In this document: piece after piece, positions 38,547 to 47,624 of the stretch
How the letters are laid out: each line of letters starts with the position of its first letter
Position numbering within the stretch: the stretch's first letter is position 1
DNA from: Methylococcales bacterium
GTDB lineage: Bacteria; Pseudomonadota; Gammaproteobacteria; Methylococcales; Methylomonadaceae
Length of the DNA: 64,000 nt
Direction: 5' to 3'
Assembly: GCA_023145835.1 (NCBI GenBank)
Contig: JAGLDH010000034.1
Span: 1-64,000, forward strand
Program-made: the position numbers and the translations under genes
Notes under the pieces: model-generated
What the model was told of the DNA's origin: nothing
Database searches by the model: none
The model's input: the letters and a program-made list of their open reading frames with translations, nothing else

Positions 38547-38855
38547 ATTCAGGTTGGCGGCTGAGTGAAAAAAAACTTAAATTAAAATCTAAAGGATAAG
38601 GGTTTTTAAAAGGGTATAGGTTTGAAGCTTGTTTTTCAGTTTAAGGCGTCATTCTATCTTGAAATATCTAGCTCGTAGACAATATTTCATTAATCTGTAA
38701 CTGTTTTTCTTCTGTTATTAATAGTAAAGCTCCGCAATTAATGGGGTATTTAGGCGTTACCGCCTAGCGTTAATTTCTACTTTTTTATTCAATGTGAGGC
38801 TGATTTCGTTGTATTTATTTTGTCAGTACTGCGTCTAATTATCATATCCAATTAT

Positions 38856-38955
38856 GGAACCTTTGATTAAGTCTTAAAATAACGATTTAATAGAATATAA
38901 CCTGTTGAATTAATTGAGCATGAGTTTTTATGAGTCAATTTTTTAGAGGTTTCTT
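38856..38955 (+). repeat. MITE-like element, copy A
   Basis: About 100 bp with inverted ends GGAACCTTTGATTAAG (38856-38871) and TTAGAGGTTTCTT (38943-38955). The inside is shared with the 39.85 kb copy, including TAAGTCTTAAAATAACGATT and TGTTGAATTAATTG, in the same orientation. No coding capacity. Confidence 0.75.
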
Positions 38956-39195
38956 ATGAAAAGGGTGCATTTTCTCCTTATTCAATGACAGGTTTGTCTT
39001 TTTTTTCTTTGTAATAAAAAAAACTTATATATATCGTTTGGTTACGGCGAGCGGCTGAAAATAAGGGGGGGTAGCTTATTAGGAATTGTTTGGGATTTTA
39101 GTGGTTATTCGAAATAGCAATAAATAACTTGAATTGTTTCAAATAATCTGATAATTTTAAGCCATCACATTATCTCATTTTATGTGAAATAAATA

Positions 39196-39436: not shown

Positions 39437-39643
39437 GTGCAGGCTGTTGTATTAACAAAAGTTATTTTTTCAATGGAGGGTAACTTAGGAAATGTACATG
39501 CTGTTATTGATGTTTCGCATTCAGATAACGCTTCTTTTATGTTAGAGGAAATGTATTCGCTTGGAACAACAGGGAATACAGACAAAAAGTTTAAAGGCAA
39601 TGAGGTAAAGCGGATTGACATGGTATTTAGATTGGCAGCTTAA
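39437..39643 (+). pseudogene. Short orphan coding fragment, unknown
   Basis: A GTG-started frame of 68 codons. The part from about residue 13, EGNLGNVHAVIDVSHSDNAS and onward to KGNEVKRIDMVFRLAA, has a protein-like, non-random composition. There is no signal peptide and no recognised family; it looks like the 3' remainder of a larger gene or a small cytosolic protein. AGGGA lies upstream at a usable distance. It is the first coding-like stretch after the CRP-type site and lies between the two MITE copies. Confidence 0.35.
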
Positions 39644-39853
39644 TCAAGATGTTAGGCTGTGTTGGCGATTATGTGCAAGGAATAAACTGCTAATTGCCCT
39701 GTATTAACCATCGTTTATGAACCTTACGAAAATGCACAAAGAAATTAAGGAGAGTATAAAAATTACAAGAGATTTTTGCTTGTTTTTAACAACAGACTAG
39801 TGGTCTTAGGCTTAATGACATCAGTATTAATGAAGAAATTGAAGTTATTCCTA

Positions 39854-39954
39854 GGGAACCTCTGGTTAAGTCTTAAAATAACGATTTAACTAAAGATAAC
39901 TTGTTGAATTAATTGGGTATTAATTTTATGGAATCAACTTGTTCAGAGGTTCCT
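39854..39954 (+). repeat. MITE-like element, copy B
   Basis: About 101 bp with inverted ends GGGAACCTCTGGTTAAGT (39854-39871) and ACTTGTTCAGAGGTTCCT (39937-39954). The core matches the 38.9 kb copy. It interrupts a frame that begins ATGACATCAGTATTAATGAA at 39818, and the terminal bases match those of the 55 kb element. Confidence 0.8.
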
Positions 39955-40102
39955 TAGAGGATTACAAGCTTACGATTTTTATTAATACATCACAGAACAT
40001 AAGGAGGGTATGGGGTTTACTTTGAAATAGATTGCTAACACTACAAGAAATGAATAAATAAGGTTAATTAACCTCAAAAAAAACAATAAAGAGATTATAT
40101 TT

Positions 40103-40387
40103 ATGGCCAAACCACCAATAAAAACTACGGTACTTCTCTGTTTAGAAGAGACATTTCAACAATTAAGTGATCATGCAAATTTTGATGAAGTGGTTTTAAT
40201 CACTTAAGGTCAAGATGAGCCAAACGGATTAGGTGCTATACGAAAAGAAAAATTTAAAAGTAATTTATTTACTGAACAAAAAATTACTTGGGATATTTCT
40301 CTTAAATGTCCTCTTTGGGCAATGGAGAAAATAGTTGCCCATTTTGTATATAGAACTATGGAAATAGATATTTCAGAAAGTTTATAA
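40103..40387 (+). pseudogene. SRPBCC-family pseudogene (in-frame stop)
   Basis: Reading from ATG 40103 gives 34 residues, including TFQQLSDHANFDEVVLIT, then TAA at 40205-40207. The same frame then continues for 59 codons as GQDEPNGLGAIRKEKF and KITWDISLKCPL before its stop at 40387. The LSDHANFDE and GQDEPNGLGAIRK parts match the start and the conserved GxNGVGAVR turn of SRPBCC/polyketide-cyclase-like lipid-binding proteins. The family is normally about 140 residues, so the C-terminal helix is also lost. It ends 26 bp before the cytochrome gene, with which it was probably co-transcribed. Confidence 0.6.
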
Positions 40388-40413
40388 AAAACTCAATAAA
40401 GGATGAAAAACTA

Positions 40414-42429
40414 ATGAACACAAGTAGAAAAATATCGGTTGTAGCAGTGCTAGCCTTTATAGCCACAAGTGCTAATTTACTTGATAATGAACAATTGATT
40501 TCAGAAAAGGAATCGGTCAAAGTTGTAGGGAAATTAGATCCAGGCAATTTACTTCAAAGTTATAATCGTTGGAAAAAAGATTATGAAAAAGGGCAGACTG
40601 TAATAAAAGGGCCTTCGATTGGCCTCACTTGGAACAAAGGATTGTCTTCAGAATATTCTAAAGCGCAAGGACTTGCGAATATAAATATTGAAACGGGAGT
40701 GGTAACCGTTGAAATTAAAGGTAATATTGATAAAGCTATTTCTGAAGTTTGGTTAGTAGAGAATATTGATAAACAGGGAAATACCATTCAACCAGATGCT
40801 AATGATAAAATAATACGTCTTGGAAGCCTTGTTTCGAAAGATAATAGTGCCAGTTTAAGTGCCCAACTAAATCCAATGGAGCTAAAGAATTTAGACGTAG
40901 ATTGGGTTGTGGTTACACGTAAGGATAACTCTCCTATTGATGGTGGCGTTCTTTATGGGTCAACTTCATTATTTCAGAAAATTTATCATTACCCTCAGCG
41001 CTTTTTATCTGCTAATTCTAAAAACAAAACAAGACTACCTTCATTAGTATCACCCGCTTTAGCGGATGGTATTTTTCCAGAGAAATGGTTTCCAAGTGCT
41101 AGCTTAGTAAATGAAGGACGAAACATATTTTTTAAGACGACCTTTGAAGGAAATGGCCGTACTTGTGGTACATGTCATCCAGAAAAAAATAATTATACTT
41201 TAGACCCTAAATTTATTGCGAAATTACCTAAGAACGATCCTTTGTTTGTCGCAGAAAGACCAGAACCCAACCCATTAGCCAAAGGTTTTGAAAACCCAAA
41301 ATTGATGAGACGAGCAGGTCTTATTATGGAGAATACAAATGGTTTTGGTAACTTAGAAACTAACTATACTATGCGAGCTGTTTCTCATGTTTTAGGAGTA
41401 AAAACATCAGTATCTCCTCCCTCTTTAGCGGGTAATGATGGAACTGTAGGTGGAAAATTTGCTCCTGAACACCGGACCGGATGGTCTGGAGATGGATCGC
41501 CAGTAGGAATAGTAGGCAATTTACATGTCCGTGGAACTATACGTGATTTTACAGTAGGTGCTATTCGTCAGCATATGCCTAAAACATTAGCTCGTACCCC
41601 AGGTGTCGATTTTAGACTTCCTACGGAACATGAGTTAAATGCGCTTGAGGCATATATGCTGTCTCTTGGTAGACAGAAAGAATTTGATGACTTTACACAA
41701 ATAACAATGTCTGATGAACGTGCTGATCGAGGAAGATTAAACTATATGGGAGAAAATGTTGATGGCGATGTAAATTGTAATGCATGTCATTTTAATGGTG
41801 GAGCTAACACTAACCCTGATTTTAATTTCCCTATTCTGATGACGCCTCCAAGTCATGAGTTTAGTAATCGATCTTTTTCACCACGTGTTGAAGAATTGAT
41901 TGACCAACTGCCCGATTTGATTGATTTTGCTAACAATCCAAAAGATGATGGTTTTGGTTCAGGTACTAATTTATTTAATGTTCAAACTGTTATTGAGGCA
42001 GCAGATACAGGGCCATTCTTTCATGCACATCAAATTGATACAGTAGAAGCGATGGTGGCATTTTATTCATCTAAGCGCACTCTAAAGAATGGAGAGGTAT
42101 TGCCGCCTATCATTGGGTTAAATGGAGCACAAGTTGCTAATATTGGTGCTTTTTTAAGGGTGTTAAATGCAGATGAAAACAGCCGGTCCGCTATTCAATT
42201 AATTGATCAGGCCTCTGATTTTTCGCGTAGGAAAGAAATTAGAACTAATCTGAGCATTGCTCGTTCTGAAATAACTGATGCAATACAGGTTTTAGAAGGT
42301 GCTAACTTACATTTTGATGATGCTTTACCTTTGCTTAGGTTAGCTCGCCATCAAATAAGACATGCTAAGTCAGCATATAGAGCCGTAAGTAAATTAAAAA
42401 AGGCGCGAAGAATGATGATAAAAAGATAA
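40414..42429 (+). CDS. Dihaem cytochrome c, MauG/CcpA-like
   Basis: A 671-residue exported protein. A short N-terminal hydrophobic stretch (about residues 6-20) acts as a signal or anchor. Residues about 55-230 are an unrecognised beta-rich domain. Two haem c motifs follow, CGTCH (251-255) and CNACH (455-459), in a dihaem cytochrome c peroxidase/MauG-like framework with SPPSLAGNDGTVGGKF and LPTEHELNALEAYMLSLGR. The last 85 residues are a helical basic tail (SKLKKARRMMIKR). Family members reduce peroxides or oxidise protein side chains in the periplasm; the substrate here is unknown. AAAGGA precedes the ATG. It is the first intact gene of the accessory row. Confidence 0.85.
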   Translation: MNTSRKISVVAVLAFIATSANLLDNEQLISEKESVKVVGKLDPGNLLQSYNRWKKDYEKGQTVIKGPSIGLTWNKGLSSEYSKAQGLANINIETGVVTVEIKGNIDKAISEVWLVENIDKQGNTIQPDANDKIIRLGSLVSKDNSASLSAQLNPMELKNLDVDWVVVTRKDNSPIDGGVLYGSTSLFQKIYHYPQRFLSANSKNKTRLPSLVSPALADGIFPEKWFPSASLVNEGRNIFFKTTFEGNGRTCGTCHPEKNNYTLDPKFIAKLPKNDPLFVAERPEPNPLAKGFENPKLMRRAGLIMENTNGFGNLETNYTMRAVSHVLGVKTSVSPPSLAGNDGTVGGKFAPEHRTGWSGDGSPVGIVGNLHVRGTIRDFTVGAIRQHMPKTLARTPGVDFRLPTEHELNALEAYMLSLGRQKEFDDFTQITMSDERADRGRLNYMGENVDGDVNCNACHFNGGANTNPDFNFPILMTPPSHEFSNRSFSPRVEELIDQLPDLIDFANNPKDDGFGSGTNLFNVQTVIEAADTGPFFHAHQIDTVEAMVAFYSSKRTLKNGEVLPPIIGLNGAQVANIGAFLRVLNADENSRSAIQLIDQASDFSRRKEIRTNLSIARSEITDAIQVLEGANLHFDDALPLLRLARHQIRHAKSAYRAVSKLKKARRMMIKR

Positions 42430-42551
42430 AATTTATTATTAAGGTGTTTTATATTTTATTTTGAATTAAAGTAGTTTCACGGAATAAATGGAATAAGGGT
42501 ATTCTGGTTATTTTGGGGAACTATTTTTTTATTCGTATTTGGGAAGTTATC

Positions 42552-43241
42552 ATGAAAATAAAAAGAAACATTATAATAAGTATTATTCTTTTATGGTTTG
42601 GGTTTGCTCAATTTTCTTGGGCAGAAATTTCTTTAACAGAGCTGTATGGTGTACGTGACATTAGTTTGTTGGAAGAGTTAATTGAAAAAGAATCTTCAGC
42701 AGCGGATACACCTGAAAAAAAGAAACGATTAGCTATTGCTTGGCATAACTTAGCAATTGAAGAGCAATCGGGGGCAGCAGAAAAAGCATTCGCTATTTTA
42801 AAACCTTTAAAAAAGGAGTTACCAAAGGATTATGAAGTTTTAGGATACCTAGGAAGTGCTCTAACAATGGTAGGAAGAGATTCATGGAACCCTTTAACTA
42901 AAATGAGTAATGTTAATAAAGGCATTGCTAAAATAGATAAAGCAATCATAAAAGATAAAGATAACATTATTTGTCGTCTTATTAGAATTTACACCTCATT
43001 TTCTTTACCTAGCTTTTTTGGTAGGGAAGAAAAGATAAAACCAGATCTAGATTATATATTAGATTTGACCCTTCGAACAGAAACCACAAAAGAGACTCAA
43101 AGTGAAATTAATTACTTAATGGGGTTACTTTTAGTTAAAGAAGATAAAGAAAAAGAAGCTAAAGTTTTTTTGGCAAAATCAATTCAATTTGACCCAGGAA
43201 GTTTATGGGCAAAAAAATCTGAGAAAATCCTTGATGATTAA
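42552..43241 (+). CDS. Periplasmic TPR-like protein, unknown
   Basis: A 229-residue exported protein. I choose ATG 42552 (MKIKRNIIISIILLWFGFAQ) because it gives a clean signal peptide with a predicted cut after SWA; an in-frame start at 42513 would put a long tail before it. The mature part holds helical tetratricopeptide-like repeats (RLAIAWHNLAIEEQSGAAEK, then NYLMGLLLVKEDKEKEAKVFLAKS). No catalytic motif is visible. It lies 122 bp after the cytochrome gene on the same strand and may be a scaffold or partner of the row. Confidence 0.7.
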   Translation: MKIKRNIIISIILLWFGFAQFSWAEISLTELYGVRDISLLEELIEKESSAADTPEKKKRLAIAWHNLAIEEQSGAAEKAFAILKPLKKELPKDYEVLGYLGSALTMVGRDSWNPLTKMSNVNKGIAKIDKAIIKDKDNIICRLIRIYTSFSLPSFFGREEKIKPDLDYILDLTLRTETTKETQSEINYLMGLLLVKEDKEKEAKVFLAKSIQFDPGSLWAKKSEKILDD

Positions 43242-43500
43242 GTTTGAACAAGTTGTTTAACATTTTTGCTAAGGAAAACAGAGGGTAAATGCTTTAAAGG
43301 GGTTAAGCATAGAAATAAATGAAGATTGGTTTATCGCTAAATAAGGGGTTTTAAGGAGTGATGAATCAACTTTGATTATAGATTTAGATGAAAAAAATTA
43401 GTAATGAATACGAAATTAGTTTTGTTTTTTCAACTCATGCCTCCTAAATAACGCCTTATGCCAAATACAAATATACAAAGAAGGACGAGGTATTAACACA

Positions 43501-44724
43501 ATGAGAACACTGAGATTGGCCTTTCGTAATATTATGCGAAATAAACGTCGTACATTCCTGACTCTATCTGCGATTATTTCTGGAGTATGTAGTATTGTTA
43601 TTTTAGGAGGGTTTATTGAGTTTACTTTTCAAGCTTTACGAGAGCAAACGATTAGAACTCAATTAGGGCATATTCAGATATATCAAGAAGGCTATATCGA
43701 ACATGGCGTTGCTGACCCTGCAAAATATTTAATTAAATCTCCCGAAAAAATAGAAACTATTTTAAAAGAAATCCCTGAAGTAGAATCAATAACTCGACGT
43801 CTTACATTATCAGGTCTAATTAGCACAGGAAATAAAACCATGAGTGCTAAAGTTACCGGAGTTATTCCAGAATTAGAAGAAGAGTTTTCTTCCTTTGAAA
43901 CAATTTTAGATGGACAACAACTAGATGAAAGCACTCCAAATGGCGGTGTTATTGGTAAGGAATTAGCTAAGGCTTTAAATGCTAAAATTGGTGATTATTT
44001 AATGATAATGACGAATACTCTTGATGGGGCGATTAATGTTGTAGAGTTTGAATTAGTTGGGATCGCACAAACTGGGTCTCAAGAATATGATAGTGTTTTC
44101 GTTAAATTACCTCTGTCTGTTGTTCAGAAAGCGTTAGAAACACAGGCTGTGGAAAAGGTTTTGATTCTTTTGGACGAGACAGAAAATGTCAATAGTGTTC
44201 TTGCTAGATTACCCAAGGAATTAAACAAAACTAATTCACTATTAGAATATAGGAGTTGGTCAGATATGGCGTTTTTTTATCATAAAGTCGTTGCCCTGTA
44301 CCAAAGTTTATTCAATGTAATTAAAGCTATTATTGCCGTTATTGTGCTTTTTAGTATCATCAACACCATGACCATGGCTGTTTTTGAGAGAACTCGTGAA
44401 ATAGGAACTTTACGTGCTATAGGAACATCTCGTGGAGGTATTATGAAGTTGTTTATCCTAGAAGGATTGTTGCTTGGTATTATTGGAGGCTTCTTTGGCC
44501 TTATTTTTGGTATTAGTATTGCGACAGCAATTAATTTTTCCGGTGGGATTGATATCCCTCCTCCTCCAGGAATGTCAAGAGGTTATGTTTCATTTATCTT
44601 AATTGTTCCCTCAGTATTGCAATATGCATTTTTATTAACAGTGATTGTTTCTGTTTTATCTAGTATATTGCCTGCATGGAAAGCTAGTCGCATTAAAATT
44701 GTTGAAGCATTAGCTTTTATTTAA
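43501..44724 (+). CDS. FtsX/MacB-type ABC transporter permease
   Basis: A 407-residue inner-membrane permease of the MacB/LolCE type. It has an N-terminal helix after a basic RNIMRNKRRT start, a periplasmic MacB core domain (about residues 45-255), and three C-terminal helices with the FtsX signature INTMTMAVFERTREIGTLRA (about residues 281-300) and the final ILPAWKASRIKIVEAL. Such proteins need an ATPase (LolD/MacB type); no ATPase gene is adjacent, nor a LolA-like carrier. The ATPase must be encoded elsewhere, or the transporter is a relic. The 259 bp before it hold no other gene. Confidence 0.9.
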   Translation: MRTLRLAFRNIMRNKRRTFLTLSAIISGVCSIVILGGFIEFTFQALREQTIRTQLGHIQIYQEGYIEHGVADPAKYLIKSPEKIETILKEIPEVESITRRLTLSGLISTGNKTMSAKVTGVIPELEEEFSSFETILDGQQLDESTPNGGVIGKELAKALNAKIGDYLMIMTNTLDGAINVVEFELVGIAQTGSQEYDSVFVKLPLSVVQKALETQAVEKVLILLDETENVNSVLARLPKELNKTNSLLEYRSWSDMAFFYHKVVALYQSLFNVIKAIIAVIVLFSIINTMTMAVFERTREIGTLRAIGTSRGGIMKLFILEGLLLGIIGGFFGLIFGISIATAINFSGGIDIPPPPGMSRGYVSFILIVPSVLQYAFLLTVIVSVLSSILPAWKASRIKIVEALAFI

Positions 44725-44800
44725 ATAATTTAATATTTGGTATTCTCAAGGTGATACGATTTAAACGTAAAAACAGCCCCTTCTTTTCAGGATATAAGGG

Positions 44801-46207
44801 ATGAATAACAGTAATCAATATTCAAAAATATTGTTATGTACTTTATTATTTTTATTCTTAGTGAGTTCTGTGAATGCTAGAATCCAAGATTGGCCTCGAG
44901 CTGGACAGATAAGATACAGGCCCTCATATCAGTTACATAATCGAGATATTAGTCAGCCAAAGGATAGGGTAAAGAAAGATCAAGCTCCTATTGAAAAAAA
45001 AGAAGAAAGTATTGCTCATGAAAAGGAAGATGAGTCTTTTCTATTCTCTCAACTGTATCATGATTGGTTAAAATCAGGAGAAATCAGTTTTCGACCTTCA
45101 TATCAGATCAGTAATAATCCCATTACTGACCCGACCGGAGAGGTTTTTGGTAGCACTGAATCTCATGGACGTTTATATGGACTCTTTAAACTGGAAAAAA
45201 GTATTTCTGATTTTCGTATTATCTCCCAAATACGTCCTCGTCTGGATTATGTCGGTAATGAAATGAAATTTAATACGGGTGTTGATGAGCTTTACGCTGA
45301 TTACGCTATAACCCCTGCAACTTTTATTGGAATAGGGAAACGAAATATTTTTTCTGGAGTAGGATTAGGAACGAATTTTACTGATTATTTTGGTGAAAAT
45401 AAGGAAGTTGACTTGACTTTAGATGAAGCATCTAGAAGAGACCAGCGAAAGGGAGATTATATGCTGAGTTTTGATTGGTTTTTTGATGCTGCAAGTTTTA
45501 GTATGCATTTTGCTCCTAGAATGGGGTCGATACAAAAAAAACAAACTCGGTTGTTGTTAAATTATAATTATTTTTTTACGGATTGGAATAGCGATATTAG
45601 TAGTTATTTTTTTATTGGAGAGCGACCTGGGGTCGGTTTTAATTTTTCTAAAAGCATGAATGATAACTGGATTTTATATTCAGAATTATCATTTCGAGAT
45701 GGACGCGATAAGCTGTATACAAATGCTCTTAAAAGTAATAAAGATGTCTATAGTGATGGGCTTATTGGATCTAATTACGCATTTGATAATGGGTTAAATG
45801 TTTATTTTGAGTACTGGCGTAATAGCAGTGGTTATAGACAAAAAGAATGGCGTCATTTTCTTAATGAAACGCAAGTAGGAATAGATCACTTTAGAATACC
45901 TAATGATTTATTAGGGCTTCCTTTATTAGGACGAATAAATGGGGGACTCAGGCCACGACTATTACGAAAAAACTATTTATTTAGTCGCTTAAGTTATAGT
46001 GTTGATCAAATCGCTGACCTATCTTTAGTCTATGTATACAATATAGATGATAGTAGTCAATTTCTCCGTGCTTTAATAGAAAGGGAGTTTTCGGGTAAAT
46101 ATAGTGCAGGGTTTCAAATAGAACAGTTTATTGGGCATGATGATGAAGAATTTGGAATGCGTCCAGCATCAACAAACTTTACTTTATACCTTAAAACATT
46201 TTTTTAA
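44801..46207 (+). CDS. Outer-membrane beta-barrel protein, unknown
   Basis: A 468-residue protein with a signal peptide (hydrophobic residues 9-24, cut near VNA). The mature start carries a motif, DWPRAGQIRYRPSYQ (residues 30-44), that is repeated as DWLKSGEISFRPSYQ (88-102) with a charged Lys/Glu linker between. The rest has alternating aromatic beta-strand pattern with strands such as WFFDAASFSMHFAPRM, and it ends in Phe (LYLKTFF), typical of BAM-assembled barrels. No family name is recognised. It lies 76 bp after the permease gene, so export of a substrate through inner and outer membranes is a reasonable inference. Confidence 0.75.
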   Translation: MNNSNQYSKILLCTLLFLFLVSSVNARIQDWPRAGQIRYRPSYQLHNRDISQPKDRVKKDQAPIEKKEESIAHEKEDESFLFSQLYHDWLKSGEISFRPSYQISNNPITDPTGEVFGSTESHGRLYGLFKLEKSISDFRIISQIRPRLDYVGNEMKFNTGVDELYADYAITPATFIGIGKRNIFSGVGLGTNFTDYFGENKEVDLTLDEASRRDQRKGDYMLSFDWFFDAASFSMHFAPRMGSIQKKQTRLLLNYNYFFTDWNSDISSYFFIGERPGVGFNFSKSMNDNWILYSELSFRDGRDKLYTNALKSNKDVYSDGLIGSNYAFDNGLNVYFEYWRNSSGYRQKEWRHFLNETQVGIDHFRIPNDLLGLPLLGRINGGLRPRLLRKNYLFSRLSYSVDQIADLSLVYVYNIDDSSQFLRALIEREFSGKYSAGFQIEQFIGHDDEEFGMRPASTNFTLYLKTFF

Positions 46208-46385
46208 AATCTAGATATATTTAATAATAAAAATAAGACACTATCTAAATTTATTTTATAGAAAAGGTATGTGATTTTAAGCCATGTTTTCTCAACGCTC
46301 TGTTATATCAAAGCGTATGGATATTAAAATAATATACTTATTAGAGGTGTCACCAACATTGAACATTTAATGGTAGCAAGGTCTT

Positions 46386-47624
46386 ATGTGGAATAGTAAG
46401 CATTATTTACTGATAATTATTTTATTCGTGAATAGCTCATTATGTTTTTCTTCGAAAGGAACCATTTTTGAAGAAGCAAATCGAGCTTATGATAATAAAA
46501 ATTATAAAAAAGCCTTAGATTTGTATGACATCGTTATTCTTGAAGATCCTAATAATCTTGATGCTGTTTACTGGGCAGCTATCGCAGCAGAAGCTGAAAA
46601 AAAATTCGATAAAAGAATAAAGTACTTAACTATCTTAAAACAGATAGACCCTAAGGGAATTATGCCTAGGGCTATGCTTATTCATTCATATCAAGAACTT
46701 GGCGAAATTCAGAAAGGTAATAAAGAGCATAATGAGATTGTTAAACTGTGGCAAAGCTTAAAAAACTCAGATTTTAAGGATGTAAAAGGATATAAGCGGG
46801 ATGTTTTTGATGTAAATGGATACCAAATAGATACTATTGAGTACTTTGAGTTACAAAATAGGTTCCCAATACGCTATCGTTTTACACCTCATATTGAAAA
46901 GCAAAAACTACCCTTTATTATATTATTAAATAGATTTGATGATTTTGATAATAAAGGATTATATCATTTGGATGTTTTTGATGGTATTCAACGGCATAGA
47001 CATAAAACCTTTAAGAAGGAACCTTCATATAATGAAGTAAGAGAATTAGTTTATAGCTTAATCGAGTCAGGGAATTTAAAAAAAGGAGCGAAAAGTAGCT
47101 ATCCATTTGAAGTGAAATTGAAGCCGTGGATTGATGAAAACTATATAGAAGCATTTGACCAAAGTACTGACAGATATCTTCTAGAGCAAGTTGTTTTACC
47201 TAAAATGTTTTTTCAAAACCCTAAAGTTTTCTTCGACTCATTTAATGAAAATAGAGAACAATTTATAAAATCTATTTTATATGATATTCATAAAAGAGTT
47301 GAAAAAAATAATCAAGCAATTAAAAGTGAAAATATTTTTTATTCAAAAATTGAAAATATTGAAAGCAAAATAGGTTTAATTAAACTACCTGCTCCTAAAG
47401 AAGCTTCTGATAGTTATTATATTGCAATATTCAGCAGTAAAAATGATCCTCAAATTAATAGGTATTTTGCTTTAAAAAAACTAGGGCGATCCTCAAGAAA
47501 GAATTTCTTAACAGAAATAACGCCTGATAGAGTTATTAGTTATGATTTTTTTGTAGAAGATTCTAGTAAAAATAGTTTTTTCAAAATGATCTTGAAATTA
47601 ACGGGTACAGAAAAAAAACTGTAA
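46386..47624 (+). CDS. TPR-containing exported protein, unknown
   Basis: A 412-residue protein with a signal peptide (hydrophobic residues 7-20, cut near LCFSS). Residues about 27-120 are TPR-like (AYDNKNYKKALDLYDIVILE, NLDAVYWAAIAAEAEKKFDK). The remainder (about 150-410) is mixed alpha/beta, rich in Phe, Lys and Tyr, and has no recognised motif. It is the last gene of the accessory row and converges on nadE with about 22 bp between stops. It might be an accessory subunit of the export machinery, but this is context only. Confidence 0.65.
   Translation: MWNSKHYLLIIILFVNSSLCFSSKGTIFEEANRAYDNKNYKKALDLYDIVILEDPNNLDAVYWAAIAAEAEKKFDKRIKYLTILKQIDPKGIMPRAMLIHSYQELGEIQKGNKEHNEIVKLWQSLKNSDFKDVKGYKRDVFDVNGYQIDTIEYFELQNRFPIRYRFTPHIEKQKLPFIILLNRFDDFDNKGLYHLDVFDGIQRHRHKTFKKEPSYNEVRELVYSLIESGNLKKGAKSSYPFEVKLKPWIDENYIEAFDQSTDRYLLEQVVLPKMFFQNPKVFFDSFNENREQFIKSILYDIHKRVEKNNQAIKSENIFYSKIENIESKIGLIKLPAPKEASDSYYIAIFSSKNDPQINRYFALKKLGRSSRKNFLTEITPDRVISYDFFVEDSSKNSFFKMILKLTGTEKKL

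Follow-up and report, generated by a model that had tools for sequence, protein, structure and literature searches.

A probable split, half-decayed ABC export operon in a methanotroph of the order Methylococcales

The gene row at positions 39437 to 47624 of a 64,000-nucleotide stretch of DNA from a Methylococcales bacterium (GenBank assembly GCA_023145835.1, contig JAGLDH010000034.1; the whole stretch is referred to here as the window) includes a copy, split and half decayed, of an ATP-binding cassette (ABC) exporter of a known type, in an unusual arrangement. Three genes of the row encode a short tetratricopeptide repeat (TPR) protein (TPR1), an FtsX-type permease, and an outer-membrane beta-barrel. 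To judge by gene order in other genomes, they are the remains of a conserved operon that consists of genes for a TPR protein, a LolD-type ATPase, FtsX, a LolA-like carrier, and a barrel. The window probably holds half of an export operon that was split and partly duplicated; its sister half lies on another contig of the same assembly, C95, and the two loci would together make one working system. The window is contig C174 of this assembly (245 contigs, 3.92 Mb), whose source is a methanotroph, since it also encodes, outside the window, a subunit of particulate methane monooxygenase. An earlier note, made from the sequence alone, had placed five intact open reading frames here, and these are confirmed, all on the + strand; they are flanked by glyS/glyQ and by the NAD+ synthetase gene with sucD/sucC, both flanks being on the - strand.

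The permease, which the earlier note called an orphan, looks like one because its own ATPase gene is a pseudogene (43234 to 43503, + strand) that had been overlooked; it is not a natural orphan. Both ends of this decayed LolD-type ABC ATPase gene are recognizable, the remnant has several in-frame stops, and the ends form two blocks that align with the intact LolD-type ATPase gene of C95 (E values of 9e-23 and 5e-15) at 65 to 73% DNA identity. A blastn comparison of the whole window with C95 shows matches at 43231 to 43316 and 43379 to 44746, with a gap of ~396 bp; this net deletion removed the middle of the ATPase gene, including most nucleotide-binding motifs. The 5' end of the remnant is still legible in frame as MIKFEQVV*HFC*GKQRVNALKGLSIEINEDWFIA (C95 counterpart, MIKVEQVVKHYYLGKRKVPALRGVSLEIGDSQFVA) and the 3' end as EYEISFVFSTHAS*ITPYAKYKYTKKDEVLTQ (C95 counterpart, ..TSFLFSTHDPKIAPYADCIHTLKDGLLIK). 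The TPR1 stop codon still overlaps the former ATPase start (ATGATTAA), as in a tight operon.

In contrast to this remnant, the adjacent FtsX/MacB-type permease gene (43501 to 44724, + strand) is intact and shows purifying selection. Its product matches the MacB_PCD and FtsX domains in Pfam (E of ~1e-19), which makes the earlier assignment to the MacB/LolCE type secure. The genome encodes a single close paralogue, on C95, with 80% amino acid identity, and the two permeases are sisters in the tree (support of 0.93). Pairwise comparison of the two genes gives a nonsynonymous divergence (dN) of 0.135 and a synonymous divergence (dS) of 1.17 (dN/dS of ~0.12), with 74, 39, and 170 differences at first, second, and third codon positions, respectively. 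Of the residues shared by C95 and two other loci (L039 and L041), 13 of 268 are changed in the window permease; the matching test on the C95 permease finds 18 changes among 273 conserved residues. The 1,221 bp of the window gene contain zero stops and zero frameshifts, and the segment around ERTREIGTLRAIG is identical in the two permeases. Judging by the MacB and LolCDE structures, this cytoplasmic segment presumably faces the ATPase. The window permease may draw on an ATPase in trans, either that of C95 or another of the LolD type, much as Anabaena HgdBC, which comes without an ATPase of its own, is suggested by its authors to be served by DevA of the DevBCA glycolipid exporter (PMC6161253).

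The sister locus on C95 encodes, in this order, the ATPase, FtsX, a LolA_like protein (Pfam ID PF17131; E of 6e-34), and a 2,529-residue polyketide synthase (PKS). The latter contains ketosynthase (KS), acyltransferase (AT), acyl carrier protein (ACP), ketoreductase (KR), and dehydratase (DH) domains, a region resembling phosphopantetheinyl transferases, and a 4HBT thioesterase domain. Upstream of the ATPase gene, the contig continues for only 391 bp, without TPR1. Sequence searches of the genome found TPR1 and the barrel once each, in the window; the only full LolA-like gene that they found lies on C95, and there is one further relative with 25% identity. With TPR1 and the barrel only in the window and the full LolA-like gene and the intact ATPase on C95, the two halves sum to one full set. 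An Rfam search of C95 gave no match, and the search for a FeeM-type synthase in this genome gave a sub-threshold match only. A transposase-like remnant was seen by eye near the other end of C95.

In the relatives, a LolA-like gene sits between FtsX and the barrel gene; in the window, this place is taken by only 77 bp. The stretch from the end of the window FtsX through the spacer and the ribosome-binding region to the barrel start can be aligned over 154 bp (68%, E of 9e-16) with the junction between FtsX and LolA in C95. Across 44722 to 44854 (+ strand), the spacer, the ribosome-binding region, and the start resemble those of the C95 LolA-like gene. The likeliest explanation is that a deletion moved the barrel gene up to the start region that had belonged to the LolA-like gene, at a junction whose exact position cannot be placed.

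The barrel gene (44801 to 46207, + strand) encodes a protein with an extended N terminus that repeats the first-strand motif (DWPRAGQIRYRPSYQ / DWLKSGEISFRPSYQ; 44850 to 45120), a repeat not seen in the aligned relatives. Modelling together with 12 relatives gives an outer-membrane barrel with a predicted local distance difference test (pLDDT) score of 75, in which residues 20 to 76 have low confidence. The fold matches AlgE and OprD-type porins equally (Z of ~22 over ~300 residues for both; 22.5 with a root mean square deviation of 3.3 over 299 residues), with 7 to 14% sequence identity to these matches. Searches of Pfam and NCBIfam gave no match, and a sequence search of the PDB gave no credible one. 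Given the tie between AlgE and OprD, the barrel can be assigned a fold and not a function; the earlier prediction of a barrel is secure in the sense of an outer-membrane porin-like fold. TPR1 (42552 to 43241, + strand, with the start at 42513 or 42552), the first gene of the module, encodes a short protein with a hydrophobic N terminus, whose model is a TPR solenoid (pLDDT of 87; best structural match, 2pl2).

An FtsX-seeded scan of 84,980 species genomes yielded 25 loci, 15 of them with FtsX at 40% identity or higher. The ATPase gene is present in all 15, a TPR1 relative lies upstream in 13, and LolA-like and barrel genes follow FtsX in all 12 with a long enough contig. Not all module loci are independent, as L042, L045, L048, and L050 are close to each other. 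The window retains the order of the module, with the ATPase dead and the LolA-like gene lost. The cytochrome and the second TPR protein (TPR2) of the window row are found at none of the 15 loci. The row is therefore not one unit. The transenvelope export suggested in the earlier note fits TPR1, FtsX, and the barrel, which co-occur elsewhere together with the ATPase and the LolA-like carrier. The refuting condition set in that note, a lack of co-conservation in any other genome, does not apply to these three genes and does apply to the cytochrome and the 412-residue TPR2. Neither the decayed ATPase nor the sister half-operon beside a PKS figures in the note.

The module is usually found beside genes of fatty acid synthase (FAS)-, PKS-, or FeeM-type synthases, in Thiotrichales, roseobacters, and methanotrophs. 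Type I PKS genes adjoin it at L040 and L041. At L046, L047, L050, L054, and others, its neighbors encode KR, a GcvT-like protein, a FeeM-like N-acyl amino acid synthase, KS, AT, KS, FabZ, and a phosphopantetheinyl transferase. The GcvT-like gene and a 262-amino-acid TPR-like protein are constant in the FeeM-type clusters of roseobacters and their relatives, such as a metagenome-assembled genome of Phaeobacter sp. (L046) and Pelagimonas (L054). Distant versions of the module in methanotrophs (L026, L027, L121, L123, and L124) lie next to other KS/KR, PKS, or nonribosomal peptide synthetase (NRPS)-like genes, the NRPS-like ones recognized by eye. One of these, in the same genus (L026; G003:C130), is an ATPase-FtsX-LolA-barrel set beside an AT gene, an HMG-synthase-like gene, and two enoyl-CoA-hydratase-like genes, a neighborhood that resembles trans-AT PKS clusters (by eye, except for the AT match).

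Within the methanotroph family, a close form of the module (at least 70% identity) is found only in this genome and one other, out of 237, a patchy distribution such as horizontal transfer would give. Full modules with FeeM, KS, ACP, and FabZ genes are found on a 99.8-kb plasmid of Escherichia coli G8 and G6/7. Among 5,426 complete E. coli genomes, these two alone carry the module. Both strains belong to the probiotic Symbioflor 2 (PMC4358396). In the literature searched, no study of this FAS/FeeM-type plasmid cluster (L110/L111; NZ_CP060058.1, 11.9 to 23.1 kb) came up, and neither did a description of any LolA/FtsX/barrel module linked to synthases for polyketides or N-acyl amino acids; this does not prove that the module is new.

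The module is inferred to carry a lipid-like product to the outer membrane. As in LolCDE-LolA, the ATPase and the permease would take an amphiphilic product of the synthase out of the inner membrane, from its outer leaflet, and hand it to the LolA-like carrier; the barrel would receive the product or pass it on at the outer membrane, and TPR1 would act as a periplasmic scaffold. With the window FtsX driven by an ATPase in trans, the window and C95 loci would form one system. Since the synthases differ between hosts, the exported product may differ as well. It is possible, and we propose it tentatively, that the module represents an undescribed class of exporters, consisting of LolD/FtsX, a LolA-like protein, a TPR protein, and a porin-like barrel, which would bring a variety of lipids made by the synthases to the outer membrane or the surface of the cell and move between distant bacteria together with the synthases; here, it would be present as two half-operons, with the permease relying on the ATPase of its sister. 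Little is known of how bacteria carry unusual lipids and polyketides through the periplasm, and here a compact gene set travels with very different synthases, with the copy on the probiotic E. coli plasmid offering a tractable host. It is the module as a whole that merits study; the window copy is of interest chiefly as an experiment of nature in ATPase loss, in which a permease that lacks an ATPase of its own has stayed intact and the sister copy retains one.

The module shares with LolCDE-LolA a LolD-type ATPase, an FtsX-type permease, and a carrier with the LolA fold and, presumably, the principle that a substrate is extracted at the inner membrane and then carried through the periplasm. 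However, it has a single permease gene instead of LolC plus LolE, its own barrel and TPR protein, and the linkage to synthases. In contrast to MacB, where they are fused, the ATPase and permease are encoded by separate genes in C95 and related loci. DevBCA-HgdD (TolC) and HgdBC of Anabaena, in which an FtsX/MacB-type permease with a DevA-like ATPase exports a synthase-made lipid, resemble what is predicted for the module; these systems use a membrane-fusion protein and TolC, whereas the module has a LolA-like carrier and a porin-like barrel, and its match to the DevA model (208 bits) is below the cut-off of 296. Aryl polyene clusters, which serve here as a lead only, also combine FAS-like synthase genes with a product located in the envelope. 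Their exporter is of the MMPL type, combined with a LolA-like protein, in contrast to the ABC/FtsX permease and large barrel of the module.

Several observations weigh against a shared system of the two loci linked to synthases. The dN/dS value, being pairwise, cannot tell present from recent selection, and dS is near saturation. Loss of the window ATPase is observed in one assembly only. In an assembly of 245 contigs, C95 could be mis-binned, although its composition matches that of the window (GC of 0.356 versus 0.357; tetranucleotide r of 0.984), so that mis-binning is possible and not suggested. Because C95 stops near the ATPase and PKS genes, extra copies of the TPR and barrel genes may lie in an assembly gap. 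Finally, L039, L051, and L052 have no synthase genes in the flanks examined.

It is also conceivable, although in our view rather unlikely, that the window copy is simply a dying duplicate, in which FtsX, TPR1, and the barrel are intact for want of time and which exports nothing. The stops and the large deletion in the ATPase remnant, along with the loss of the LolA-like gene, would fit such plain decay, as would the copies of a mobile-like element and the broken frames just upstream, which mark an eroding region. However, while the remnant has diverged from its C95 counterpart as far as described above, the adjacent FtsX has acquired no stop or frameshift, its differences are mostly at third positions, and it has fewer changed conserved residues than the C95 copy. 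Further, an open barrel frame with a signal-like start survived the deletion of the LolA-like gene, and the window holds the only copies of TPR1 and the barrel found in the genome.

We consider it improbable that the module serves Lol lipoprotein sorting or MacAB-type efflux, with its PKS/FAS linkage being incidental. The best NCBIfam matches are indeed LolD (ATPase) and LolC/E (permease), and the three loci without nearby synthase genes also speak for this scenario. Nevertheless, all Lol and MacB matches are well under the curated cut-offs: 141 bits versus 362 for the window permease and the LolC/E model, 240 versus 308 for the C95 ATPase and the LolD model, and 64 versus 966. No MacA-type adaptor was recognized among the genes of the row or of the module, and no TolC gene was recognized in the row. 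In addition, KS/AT/ACP/FeeM, type I PKS, or NRPS-like genes adjoin the module in unrelated lineages and on the E. coli plasmid. Recruitment of the permease, TPR1, and the barrel to an ATPase-independent or differently powered role, for example in a complex with the cytochrome and TPR2, is suggested by the common strand and short gaps of all these genes but is very hard to credit, as the cytochrome and TPR2 never accompany the module, the cytochrome relatives have no common neighbors, and the ERTREIGTLRAIG region, the expected ATPase contact, is the same as in C95.

By the same gene-order comparison, the cytochrome and TPR2 are unrelated neighbors, mere bystanders of the export genes. The cytochrome (40414 to 42429, + strand; 671 amino acids) belongs to a stand-alone Methylococcales family related to MauG and MbnH, as the earlier note's MauG-like label implied. 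It has two CXXCH motifs (CGTCH and CNACH), whose Cys and His residues are invariant in an alignment of 9 sequences, and profile searches link it to MbnH/MauG-type di-haem enzymes through 6e1c (E of 2e-8) and MauG (E of 1e-4). The match to the Pfam CCP_MauG family reaches 12.8 bits, below the cut-off of 25.6; its relatives match weakly. Unlike MauG and MbnH, it is much longer and carries an additional N-terminal domain of ~200 amino acids, which is conserved across the Methylococcales relatives and matches no Pfam family. The family is present in 10 of 60 related genomes, without shared neighbors in other Methylococcales. Participation of the cytochrome in the export system was considered and rejected on this ground and because it is absent from all module loci examined, which also leaves the proposed redox processing unsupported. 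TPR2 (46386 to 47624, + strand; 412 amino acids) was likewise rejected as a member of the system, with only generic TPR matches and no counterpart at the module loci.

The housekeeping genes bordering the row, which the earlier note called conserved, do not form a conserved frame: the adjacency of glyQ and nadE was not found in relatives, within the flanks examined. Promoter and terminator scans gave counts no higher than in shuffled sequence, so that no transcription unit can be delineated. Upstream of the cytochrome gene lie an open-frame fragment with no assignable family (39437 to 39643, + strand), which is outside the module, and an interrupted reading frame (40103 to 40387, + strand) with a stop at ~40205 to 40207. 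Pfam searches gave no match for either, so that the previous labels of coding fragment and SRPBCC pseudogene are not confirmed. An inverted-repeat element of ~105 bp, resembling a miniature inverted-repeat transposable element, is found at ~36 places in a DNA search of the genome and folds as an inverted repeat. Two of its copies, 81% identical to each other, lie on the + strand at 38853 to 38956 and at 39850 to 39960, where they bracket a stretch of broken frames.

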